Assembly (NCBI GenBank): GCA_007118345.1
Contig: SKRR01000024.1
Location: forward strand, 1-50,536
Reading direction: 5' to 3'
From: Microthrixaceae bacterium
Lineage (GTDB): Bacteria > Actinomycetota > Acidimicrobiia > Acidimicrobiales > Microtrichaceae
Length of the DNA: 50,536 bases
Below are positions 11,580 through 15,799 of the stretch, piece by piece (the stretch's first letter is position 1; each line of letters starts with the position of its first letter). Made by a program: the position numbers and the translations under genes. The notes beneath the pieces are model-generated. The model was not told the origin of the DNA. It worked only from the letters and a program-made list of their open reading frames with translations, and searched no databases.

Positions 11580-12680
11580 TCAGCTCGTCGGTTCGTCGAA
11601 CAGCGAGGGGTCTGCCGTGCCGAACGCGGATGGCGGGGCGACGAGGCCCAGATGGTGCCAGGCCGCCGTGGTCGCGACGCGGCCGCGTGGGGTCCGCATC
11701 AACAGACCCTGCTGGATCAGATAGGGCTCGTACACGTCCTCGACCGTCTCGGTGGGTTCCGACACGGCGATCGCCAGTGTCGACAGACCGACGGGCCCGC
11801 CACCGAAGCGCTCGCAGAGCGCCGAGAGGATGGAGCGGTCGACCTTGTCGAGACCTTGGCGGTCGATGCCGAACAGCTCGAGCCCCCGTGCGGCGACCTC
11901 GACGCCGATGTCCCCGTCGCCCTCCACCTCTGCGACGTCACGGACCCGACGCAGCAGGCGGTTCGCGATCCGAGGAGTGCCGCGGGCGCGCCGGGAGATC
12001 TCGCGCGCGCCCTCGGTGTCGATCGTCGCGCCCAGGATGAGCGCGGCACGCTCGACGATGGAGCAGAGCTCGTCGGGCTCGTAGTAGTCGAGGCGAGCGA
12101 CCAGGCCGAAGCGGTCGCGTAGCGGCCCGGTGATGAGCCCTGTTCTCGTCGTGGCCCCGACCAGGCAGAAACGGGGCAGATCGAGTCGGATCGACCGCGC
12201 GGCCGGGCCCTTGCCGAGCACGATGTCGAGCTGGAAGTCCTCCATCGCCGGGTACAGCACCTCTTCGACCGAGCGCGACAGGCGGTGGATCTCGTCGATG
12301 AACAGCACGTCGCCGTCGCCGAGCTTGGTGAGGATCGCCGCGAGGTCACCCGGTCGCTCGAGCGCCGGACCCGATGTCACATGGAGGGCGACGTCCATCT
12401 CGGCGGCGACGATGACCGACAGCGAGGTCTTGCCGAGCCCCGGTGGCCCGGCGAAGAGGAAGTGGTCGGGAGGTTGGCCACGGCGGCGGGCCGCCTCGAG
12501 GATCACCGAGAGGCGGCGCTTGAGCTCGCGTTGCCCGACGAACTCGTCCAGCGTGCGGGGCCGCAGCGACGCAACGACCTCGGCCGCAGCGTCGTTCCTC
12601 GCGTCGGCGAGGACGTCCGCAGCCTCCCACGGAGCGTCGTCGTCGCCGGGTTCTGGCCGCAGCAACTCGTCGCGCGCCAC
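11580..12680 (-). CDS. ruvB: Holliday junction branch-migration ATPase RuvB
   Basis: Hexameric AAA+ motor that drives branch migration at Holliday junctions with RuvA. The 366-aa protein has [11 protein letters not shown], Walker [11 protein letters not shown] (about 75-84), Walker [12 protein letters not shown], sensor GATTRTG and the arginine-finger GPLRDRFG, then the winged-helix domain with [15 protein letters not shown]. The start is GTG at 12680, 1 nt after the ruvA stop. A 25-residue acidic extension precedes the conserved part. This is the last gene of ruvC-ruvA-ruvB. Confidence 0.97.
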
Positions 12681-12681
12681 C

Positions 12682-13281
12682 TCAGGCCACCGCCAGCCGC
12701 TGTAGTGCCACCCGTAGCAGTTCCCCGGTGTCGTCCCCGTCGGGGAGGTCCGACACCACCCGGCTCACCTCGTCGCCCGCGTAGCCCAACGCTGCGAGCG
12801 CTTCGCGCACATCGGCCCGCACGGTGTCACCGACGAGTGGCCCACCCGTCGTGCCCGACGGGGCGTCGACCCCATCGGGGCCTGCGAGGCGGCTCTTCAG
12901 CTCGATGAGCAACCGCGCTGCGGTCTTCTTGCCGACGCCGGGCACGAGGCACAGTCCGGCGACGTCGTCGGTCGCGAGCAGGTGCCGGAGCCCCAACGGG
13001 GAGTGCACCGAGAGGATCGCGAGTCCGAGCGACGGTCCCACGCCGTGGGTGCCGATGAGGACCTCGAACACCCGCCGGTCCTCGATGCCGTTGAAGCCGT
13101 AGAGCGTCTCGGCGTCCTCGCGTCGATGGTGGTGGACGTGGAGGAACACCTCGCTGCCCACCTCCCCCGCCTCGGCCGAGGTCGCCGGTGTGACCGAGAC
13201 CCGGTAGCCGATGCCGCCGACCTCGACGAGCAGCTCGCCCTCGTCGCGGGCGAGCAGCTGCCCCCGGAGTGATCCGATCAT
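12682..13281 (-). CDS. ruvA: Holliday junction DNA helicase subunit RuvA
   Basis: DNA-binding tetramer that recognises four-way junctions and recruits RuvB. The 199-aa product begins [10 protein letters not shown], the standard RuvA opening, and has the OB-fold N-terminus, helix-hairpin-helix motifs ([16 protein letters not shown], about 105-120) and a C-terminal RuvB-contact domain ending in [10 protein letters not shown] longer frame is open upstream but it lies inside ruvC. The ATG at 13281 overlaps the ruvC stop by 4 nt (ATGA). Confidence 0.96.
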
Positions 13282-13784
13282 GTGACGGCTCCATTGCTGG
13301 TGCGCGGCGTGACGCCGGCGGTGTGGGCGATGTGGGTGAGCGCGACCGCTGCTGCGTCGGCCACGTCCGCGGGGCGGGGTGGCGCCGGCAGTTCGAGCAG
13401 GCGCTGCACCATGTGCTGCACCTGGTCCTTGTCGGCATCGCCCATTCCGGTCACGGCCTGCTTCACCTGGTTGGGTGAGTACTCGCTGACCGGGAGACCC
13501 CGGCCGGCGGCCTCGGCCATGAACAGGCCCGACGCTTGGGCGACGCCGATGGCCGTGCGGGCATTGACCTGGAACAACACGCGTTCGACCGCCAACGCGG
13601 ACGGGCGGTACTCGTCGAACAGCGAGCGTGCGTCGGCGAGCAGCTCGCCCAGTCGAGCGGGCACGTCGGCAGCAGGGTCGGTGCGCAGCACGCCCATCGC
13701 CACGACACGCCCGGCACCCCGCCCGGCGGCGATCACGCAGTAGCCGCAACGGGAGAGACCGGGGTCGACGCCGAGCACGAACAC
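13278..13784 (-). CDS. ruvC: Crossover junction endodeoxyribonuclease RuvC
   Basis: Dimeric nuclease that resolves Holliday junctions. Catalytic acids are visible in GVDPGLSRCG (first Asp), AVERVLF (Glu) and the DVADAAAVALTH stretch near the C-terminus (last Asp pair). I give GTG at 13784 as the start (168 aa, beginning MFVLGVDPG) because a TATGAT hexamer at 13792-13797 lies exactly 7 nt upstream, the leaderless arrangement repeated in this window. An in-frame ATG at 13796 would add MIEP and give 172 aa; it lies inside the -10 hexamer. The gene opens a tight ruvC-ruvA-ruvB operon and looks SOS-controlled. Confidence 0.92.
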   Translation of the reverse strand: MFVLGVDPGLSRCGYCVIAAGRGAGRVVAMGVLRTDPAADVPARLGELLADARSLFDEYRPSALAVERVLFQVNARTAIGVAQASGLFMAEAAGRGLPVSEYSPNQVKQAVTGMGDADKDQVQHMVQRLLELPAPPRPADVADAAAVALTHIAHTAGVTPRTSNGAVT

Positions 13785-13797
13785 AGGTTCGATCATA
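13777..13797 (-). promoter_or_regulatory. ruvC promoter with LexA-type SOS box
   Basis: On the minus strand the site reads TATGAT (13797-13792) then a 16-mer TCGAACCTGTGTTCGT (13792-13777). The actinobacterial LexA consensus is TCGAAC-N4-GTTCGA; this matches 11 of 12 fixed positions. It covers the expected transcription start, so bound LexA would block the promoter. It also uses GAA and CCT codons, which are uncommon in these GC-rich genes, hinting that DNA sequence is selected here. Confidence 0.75.
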
Positions 13798-13865
13798 TCG
13801 GCAGCGGCTCGGAGGCTCGCGGACCCGAACGTCAAGACCGGGGGACGGGCGACCGATGGTGCTGC

Positions 13866-14945
13866 ATGCACCCCTCCGCCGGCCCTCCCGCCGGACCTAC
13901 GACCACCTCGCTCGTCACCCTCGACGACGTGGGCCACCGCTTCGGCGGTGCAGTGGCCCTTTCGGGCCTGTCCTTCGAGGTCCCCCGCGGCCGCATCACC
14001 GTCCTGCTGGGCCCGAACGGCGCGGGCAAGACCACCGCGTTCAGGGCGATCACCGGTGCGCTGGTCCCCGACGCCGGGCAGGTCCGCACCTTCGGCCTCG
14101 ACCCCGACCGACAGGGGCACCTGGTTCGGCCACGCTGTGGTGTGGTCTCGGCCAAGCCGGCGCTGTACGACCGCCTCAGCGGCCTCGACAACCTCGTCTA
14201 CTCAGCAGAGCTGTACGGCGTGGAGGGCGAGCTGGCGCCGAAGGTCCGGGACGCCGCGGGACGGTTCGGCATCGCCGAGGCGCTGGATCAGGCAGTGGGC
14301 GGCTACTCGACGGGAATGAAGACCCGTCTCGCCCTCGCGAGGTCGATCCTGCACGAGCCGGAGTTGCTGCTCTTCGACGAGCCGACCTCGGGCCTCGACC
14401 CCGAGTCGTCCCACGCCGTGCTGGAGCTGATCCGGGAGCTCACCGAGGAAGGGCGCACGGTGGTGATGTGCACGCACCTCCTCGCCGAGGCCGAGGGGCT
14501 CGCCGACCACGTGGTGATGATGGAGGGTGGCAACGCGCTGCTGAGCGGGTCCCCCGACGAGCTCACCCTGCGCTTCTGGCCGCGGCCCGTGGTGCACCTG
14601 GACGCAGAGGACCCGAGGGTGCTCGACCGTGTCGCCGCCTGGCCGGGAGTCGAGGCCTACCGACGTGACCCCGGCGGTGCACGGGTGGAGCTGACCGACG
14701 TCGCGAGCTTGCCCGAGCTGATCACCTCGTTGTGCGCCGACGGCGCGCGGCTCACCAGGGTCGAGCCCCACACCCCCAGCCTCGAGGACCTCTATTTCAT
14801 GATCCGCCGCGGCCGCGACGGTGCGAGCGCGCCTGATGGCCCGCTCGCACCGATCCGGGGTCGCTGGGGCAGGAGCGAACTCCCTGCACCACAGCTGCCA
14901 TCGGTGCTCGACCCGCCCGCCCATCACGACGGAGTCGCACGATGA
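13866..14945 (+). CDS. ABC transporter ATP-binding protein (ABC-2 exporter type)
   Basis: ATPase subunit of a two-gene exporter (359 aa). Walker A GPNGAGKTTAF (about 49-59), Q-loop region, a variant signature YSTGMKTRLALARS in place of LSGGQ, Walker B LLLFDEPTSGLDPE and the H-loop CTHLLAEAE are present. A C-terminal extension of about 130 residues resembles the accessory domain of drug and antibiotic exporters such as CcmA/NatA-like ATPases. The next in-frame start upstream is absent, so ATG at 13866 is preferred; no strong ribosome-binding site is seen. The stop overlaps the permease ATG by 4 nt. Substrate unknown. Confidence 0.92.
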   Translation: MHPSAGPPAGPTTTSLVTLDDVGHRFGGAVALSGLSFEVPRGRITVLLGPNGAGKTTAFRAITGALVPDAGQVRTFGLDPDRQGHLVRPRCGVVSAKPALYDRLSGLDNLVYSAELYGVEGELAPKVRDAAGRFGIAEALDQAVGGYSTGMKTRLALARSILHEPELLLFDEPTSGLDPESSHAVLELIRELTEEGRTVVMCTHLLAEAEGLADHVVMMEGGNALLSGSPDELTLRFWPRPVVHLDAEDPRVLDRVAAWPGVEAYRRDPGGARVELTDVASLPELITSLCADGARLTRVEPHTPSLEDLYFMIRRGRDGASAPDGPLAPIRGRWGRSELPAPQLPSVLDPPAHHDGVAR

Positions 14946-15799
14946 CTGCCGCGATCGAGCCTCCTGCTGCGCGCCGGTTCGACCGACACCGCATGTGGGT
15001 CGTCGCCCGCACCGAGCTGCGCCAACTGCTGGCGTCGAAGGACTACTGGATCCCGATGGCGGCACTCGGCGCGCTCTTCTTCGTCGTGATCCCCTCGGCG
15101 CTGCTGTTGATGATCACGGCGATCGGCGACGTCTCGGTCGTGCGTCAGGCATCCCAGGCGCTCAGCGTGCTGCCCGAGGCGGCCCAGTCCCGGATCCGTG
15201 GTGACTCACCCGAGGCGCGCACTGCGTTCGCACTCGCCGTGTACCTGCTCGCACCCGTCGCAGTGGTGGTCCCGCTGACCATCTCGACCGCCGTCGGCGC
15301 CGCATCGTTGGTCGGCGAGCGGGAACGTGGCACCGGCGAGTTCCTCGCCCACTCGCCCGCCTCGGTACGGGAGATCTACCTCGGCAAGATCATCGCCAGC
15401 ATCGTCCCGGGCTACCTGACCACGGTCGTGGGTTTCGGGGCCTACTCCCTCGCGGTCAACCTGATCGCCGGGCCTGCGGCAGGCGGGTGGTTCTTCCCCA
15501 CCACCGAGTGGATGGTGATGGTGTTCTGGATCATCCCGCCGTTCCTGCTCCTGACGCTGTCACTCGTGCTGCGCCTCTCGGCACGGGTGCGCTCGACCGC
15601 GGCAGCGCAGCAGGCGTCCGGTCTCATCACGCTGCCACTCATCGGCATCGCCTACGTCCAGGCGACCGGCACGCTGGTCGGCTCGACCGTCGCCACCGGA
15701 TGGGCGCTCGGAGCGGTGGCGTGGGTCGTGGCGCTGCTCAGCGCTCACCTGGGGGTGCGCTCGGTGACCCGCAACCGCCTGCTCGGCGTGACCCAATGA
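14942..15799 (+). CDS. ABC-2 type transporter permease
   Basis: Membrane partner of the preceding ATPase (285 aa). Hydrophobic helices appear at about 38-62, 98-125, 155-178, 195-215, 228-245 and 250-268, the six-helix pattern of ABC-2 permeases. The cytoplasmic loop GERERGTGEFLAHSP followed by IYLGKI is typical of ABC-2 proteins in the NatB/YhaP group. Translation is coupled to the ATPase (ATGA at 14942). The cargo cannot be deduced. Confidence 0.88.
   Translation: MTAAIEPPAARRFDRHRMWVVARTELRQLLASKDYWIPMAALGALFFVVIPSALLLMITAIGDVSVVRQASQALSVLPEAAQSRIRGDSPEARTAFALAVYLLAPVAVVVPLTISTAVGAASLVGERERGTGEFLAHSPASVREIYLGKIIASIVPGYLTTVVGFGAYSLAVNLIAGPAAGGWFFPTTEWMVMVFWIIPPFLLLTLSLVLRLSARVRSTAAAQQASGLITLPLIGIAYVQATGTLVGSTVATGWALGAVAWVVALLSAHLGVRSVTRNRLLGVTQ

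Follow-up and report, generated by a model that had tools for sequence, protein, structure and literature searches.

The ruvC gene of this Microthrixaceae bacterium very probably opens with a fused module, TATGAT-CGAACCTGTGTTCG, which would serve at once as promoter end, LexA operator and translation start, and from which a leaderless, LexA-repressed ruvC-ruvA-ruvB mRNA would be released upon DNA damage. The module lies on the minus strand of the window, that is, the whole 50,536-nucleotide stretch of DNA that was analysed. This reading rests on the observed sequence, on its conservation and register among relatives, and on a host lexA gene with the same boxes. The box itself, its class-wide register, the loci with extended starts, and the co-loss of box and LexA system are together the reason why GTG 13784 is read as a leaderless, LexA-repressed start; judging from these comparisons, it is almost certainly the start of the ruvC-ruvA-ruvB mRNA.

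The minus strand of the region reads ccgaTATGATCGAACCTGTGTTCGTGctcgg (longer extract, ccgaTATGATCGAACCTGTGTTCGTGCTCGGCGTC), and its features are collected in the table. The 16-mer TCGAACCTGTGTTCGT shares 11 of the 12 fixed bases of TCGAAC-N4-GTTCGA, with all 10 bases of the core matched, and a recount thus bears out the 11/12 agreement with the actinobacterial LexA consensus given by the sequence-only reading. The 7-nt spacing from TATGAT to the GTG is likewise correct by coordinates, and the arrangement by which leaderless genes are recognized, TANNNT ending 7 nt before RTG, is present at ruvC in the window. The same reading had placed the box between the -10 hexamer and the start codon, which is wrong: the box contains GTG 13784 and overlaps TATGAT by one base, its first T being the last base of the hexamer. 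The strand of the feature is also corrected here. The right arm of the box consists of the start codon and codons 2-3 of ruvC (GTG TTC GT), and the ruvC start is the only site in the 50.5-kb window with a perfect CGAAC-N4-GTTCG. Because ruvC and ruvA overlap in an ATGA, ruvB follows directly and about 80 bp are left for a ruvC promoter before the divergent ABC gene, one promoter should serve ruvC, ruvA, and ruvB. The divergent plus-strand segment (13866-15799) encodes the ABC exporter ATPase and then a membrane-protein ORF, and lies between ruvC and a minus-strand yebC-like gene.

Table. Features of the ruvC start region and its neighbours in the window
Feature	Position	Strand	Basis
Conserved promoter element GTCCGC (RTCCNC), 27 nt before T of TATGAT	13819..13824	minus	Alignment of boxed ruvC promoters
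-10 hexamer TATGAT	13792..13797	minus	Coordinates; TANNNT 0-3 nt before box in 118/118 boxed ruvC relatives
Predicted LexA operator (SOS box) TCGAAC-CTGT-GTTCGT, 16-mer TCGAACCTGTGTTCGT	13777..13792	minus	Motif and conservation
Operator core, 14-mer CGAACCTGTGTTCG	13778..13791	minus	Sequence
GTG, ruvC start codon inside operator; predicted 5′ end of leaderless mRNA	13782..13784	minus	RTG register in relatives
ATG within TATGAT, rejected alternative ruvC start	13794..13796	minus	ATG at that codon in 4/118 relatives
ruvC, 168 aa, protein begins MFVLGVDPGLSRCG	13278..13784	minus	ORF; Pfam RuvC PF02075, E 2.6e-47
ruvA; ATG overlaps ruvC stop codon (ATGA, 13281-13278)	12682..13281	minus	ORF; identity from sequence (LIELKSRL), no profile search
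ruvB, next gene after ruvA on the same predicted transcript	11580..12680	minus	ORF; identity from sequence (LDEFVGQ, DEIHRL), no profile search
Divergent ABC exporter ATPase	13866..14945	plus	Pfam ABC_tran, E 6.8e-27

Start regions of ruvC were collected for 110 loci within the order of the host and for 20 in other orders of the class, 129 of them scorable, and a locus was counted as boxed when at least 8 of the 10 bases of CGAAC-N4-GTTCG were matched at -7 to an ATG or GTG. A box in that register over an RTG start was found at 118 of the 129 ruvC starts (59 ATG and 59 GTG), and in each of the 118 a TANNNT precedes the box by 0-3 nt, which supports the proposed position of the operator over the predicted transcription start. 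CGWAC ends 2 nt before the start codon at 104 of the 129 loci and at any other offset in 0-2. Shine-Dalgarno-like 4-mers occur at 11 of the 118 boxed loci. Every boxed relative has RTG at the position of GTG 13784, and an ATG corresponding to 13796 is found in just 4 of the 118; because of this rarity the longer start is ruled out, and the shorter one favored by the sequence-only reading is strongly supported. The ruvC start-codon annotation is thereby corrected class-wide.

The host genome, a draft of 3.35 Mb in 368 contigs, contains 19 CGAAC-N4-GTTCG sites versus 2 for a reversed-pattern control. A chance match at ruvC is ruled out by this count, by the uniqueness of the site in the window and by the register in relatives. 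The lexA gene, whose product has LexA_DNA_bind (PF01726) and Peptidase_S24 domains by profile search, is preceded by two of the 19 sites and, next to these, by a near-match. Further sites stand before uvrA (identified from sequence alone), a gene for an AlkB-type 2OG-Fe(II) oxygenase, and DUF222/HNH genes. Roughly half of all 19 fall within coding sequence and may be due to chance. Since sites precede lexA, uvrA, the alkB-type gene and the DUF222/HNH genes, the motif of the host LexA is taken to be the one that the sequence-only reading had assumed. The scan of the genome for SOS genes that the same reading proposed was borne out for lexA, which has boxes, and failed for recA, a would-be positive control that was not found in the draft, metagenome-derived assembly (best match 19 bits, under the family cut-off); this absence is probably an assembly gap. 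The identity of the ruvC palindrome as a LexA box is thus supported, at the level of sequence comparison, by the motif, the three boxes (two exact, one near) in front of lexA, the conservation, and the co-loss described below.

From these observations we infer transcription start, LexA binding, repression and induction as follows. A SigA-type RNA polymerase would use TATGAT and start at or beside GTG 13784, yielding a leaderless mRNA of ruvC, ruvA and ruvB. Bound to the palindrome, a LexA dimer would lie over the last base of the -10 hexamer, the transcription start and the initial codons, and would thereby block initiation. Upon DNA damage, RecA-stimulated self-cleavage of LexA would free the promoter, and damage induction of ruvCAB is likely by analogy. 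Leaderless genes, marked by a TANNNT some 12 bp ahead of the start, are common in actinobacteria (PMC3160421, PMC3898074). The leaderless lexA mRNA of Mycobacterium tuberculosis (PMC2897130) has this TANNNT spacing to an ATG/GTG at which transcription also starts, as is predicted here for ruvC.

LexA control of ruvC is already known in other actinobacteria. An SOS box of M. tuberculosis ruvC was reportedly described by Davis in 2002, and by the title of a 2010 paper by Dawson et al. (cited in PMC8151990) this gene was reported to be induced RecA-independently despite its SOS box, a caveat for reading the ruvC box as a damage switch. On this precedent, the operator may be real and LexA-bound while a second, RecA-independent activator mainly drives damage induction of ruvCAB and LexA trims basal expression. 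Such an arrangement is unlikely, though it is the best of the alternatives, and a second conserved element is compatible with it: RTCCNC stands at a fixed 26-27 nt before the T of TANNNT in the ruvC promoters of the class, its T falling at -26 in 101 of 118, and is sharper when promoters are aligned on the -10 hexamer than on the start codon. RTCCNC, however, matches no known regulator, having neither the PafBC spacing nor that of a normal -35 element (spacer about 21). Genome-wide, the pattern is modestly above control. The established RecA-independent promoter, that of PafBC, has the form tTGTCRgtg-N8-TAnnnT (PMC5656591), and TGTCR at 11 nt before TANNNT is absent from the ruvC promoter of the window; among the ruvC promoters of boxed relatives TGTC is found at this spacing in 3 of 118. 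A PafBC element at ruvC was accordingly rejected.

In M. tuberculosis, as here, the ruvC promoter has a LexA box, and RuvA, RuvB, and RuvC all increase after mitomycin C (PMC8151990). In Streptomyces venezuelae, ruvC is bound by LexA in ChIP-seq and induced by mitomycin C, and its LexA site, like the present one, is near the gene start; the listed site begins 23 bp upstream of the predicted start codon, whereas the operator here contains the start codon (PMC9380542). The same arm variants occur in both lineages: among the Acidimicrobiia ruvC loci, the left arm is CGTAC in 43 and the right arm GTACG in 2, and in S. venezuelae, LexA binds the dnaE2-1/-2 sites, whose left arm is CGTAC or whose right arm is GTAC, in surface plasmon resonance (PMC9380542).

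It is very improbable that the palindrome belongs to leaderless starts in general, with a role in promoter function or translation initiation and not as a LexA site. At ruvC it is always accompanied by TANNNT and RTG, as this explanation would have it, but before lexA several copies of the motif stand clear of start codons, and at uvrA, alkB and two DUF222 genes it lies upstream of the -10 hexamer. Moreover, sequences of the form TANNNT-N7..9-RTG in the inspected loci score either 6/10 or less or 9-10/10 for the motif, without intermediates, and ruvC boxes are gone in genomes where the motif is not enriched. Indeed, the three loci of one family (f35) that lack the box (L118, L141, and L153) belong to genomes with no detectable LexA domain, and their motif counts versus control are inconsistent (3 vs 9, 1 vs 13, and 9 vs 3). 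Two genomes of a second family (f50) show no motif enrichment (1 vs 16 and 1 vs 7), and their ruvC box is absent or at 7/10, whereas 11 boxed genomes together have 159 motif sites versus 19 controls. In a two-by-two comparison, LexA presence and the ruvC box are associated with a Fisher p of 0.005, which is counted as support only, because independent losses are few and there are four apparent exceptions. Those four are boxed genomes without a detectable LexA domain (G004, G012, G069, and G089), possibly through assembly gaps; two others (G032 and G081) have LexA and an absent or weak ruvC box. In Acidimicrobiia of genus g125 (f64), with genomes of about 1 Mb, RuvC was found in none of those sampled.

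The LexA operator reading would also account for the first residues of RuvC. Codon 2 of the boxed genes is TTC in 110, TTT in 6, and TAC in 2, and codon 3 encodes Val in 99, Ala in 9, Asp in 9, and Gly in 1; Phe2 changes to Tyr (TAC) wherever the right arm is GTACG, and one locus only is imperfect in both arms. Because the right half-site doubles as codons 1-3, the Met-Phe-Val N-terminus is probably dictated by the operator and not by the chemistry of RuvC. In 15 boxed loci, 2-14 extra residues precede the RuvC core (for example VFDPRGPVLGVDPG and VFANGRQLAPIRVLGIDPG), and the box keeps to the start codon and TANNNT, not to the core. In three more genomes (L112, L158, and L128/L324), the RTG of the operator opens a separate ORF of 9, 9, or 28 codons. 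Two of these ORFs end in a stop that overlaps the ruvC ATG (ATGA), and the stop of the third lies two bases before the ruvC GTG; these leader ORFs are apparently translationally coupled to ruvC. Both the leader ORFs and the boxes on extended starts are expected if the RTG of the operator is a true leaderless start. In the module, a predicted transcription-factor site clearly constrains a protein sequence, the half-site staying at the start when the N-terminus lengthens. A further alternative, in which common codons (GTG TTC GTG) happen to spell the right arm, the left arm arose by chance and ruvC starts at ATG 13796, has in its favor that Val-Phe-Val codons spell GTTCG and that the ATG is in frame, but the comparative data in practice refute it and leave it almost no likelihood, since the non-coding left arm is conserved as well as the right one (A at -4 in 118/118 and C at -3 in 117/118), CGWAC keeps to a single offset, the ATG is rare in relatives, and N-terminally extended loci keep RTGTTCG away from the RuvC core.

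In other classes of the phylum, 12 of 20 ruvC genes have a 9-10/10 box upstream, 30-159 nt before the start of the RuvC core, and in none of the 20 does the box lie on the start codon; several have TANNNT within a few bases of the box. An operator beside the -10 hexamer would therefore appear to be old, and in Acidimicrobiia the start codon may have moved into the operator as the leader disappeared or came to be translated. In the literature searched, we found no LexA operator described as containing a leaderless start codon and encoding the first residues, and what appears to be new is the class-wide fusion of operator and start codon, common to ruvC and the DUF222/HNH family.

The module pattern TANNNTCGWACNNRTGTTCG occurs in 102 of 159 genomes of the class, and its reversed control once in all of them; as a sequence signature, the module serves to locate SOS genes in the genomes of bacteria that are largely uncultured. 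One complete genome has 31 matches to the pattern, and the 10 that were inspected all start with Met-Phe-Asp. Among 21 inspected module cases other than ruvC, 17 have TGTCR upstream of TANNNT at a distance of exactly 11 nt, as in the PafBC promoter, which suggests that DUF222/HNH genes with the module and this PafBC-like element may receive two damage inputs. The 13E12/HNH genes of M. tuberculosis are under SOS control (PMC5005354, PMC8151990), and the HNH-type genes of Acidimicrobiia carry the same kind of predicted control as these LexA-controlled genes. In contrast to M. tuberculosis 13E12, many HNH genes of Acidimicrobiia have the -10/operator/start module (Met-Phe-Asp), and a PafBC-like TGTCR is often present as well. 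The case is evenly balanced for a broader proposal, in which the 20-bp Acidimicrobiia module would be a reusable SOS unit that fixes RuvC residues 2-3 (Phe/Tyr-Val/Ala/Asp) from the DNA side and opens a large DUF222/HNH family (Met-Phe-Asp), most inspected members of which have the PafBC-like element and would read two damage signals. Four DUF222/HNH loci of the host (L279, L305, L306, and L014) open with the module, which is also found at L307-L316 (G149), L318, and L320-L322, where the proteins start with Met-Phe-Asp or similar residues.
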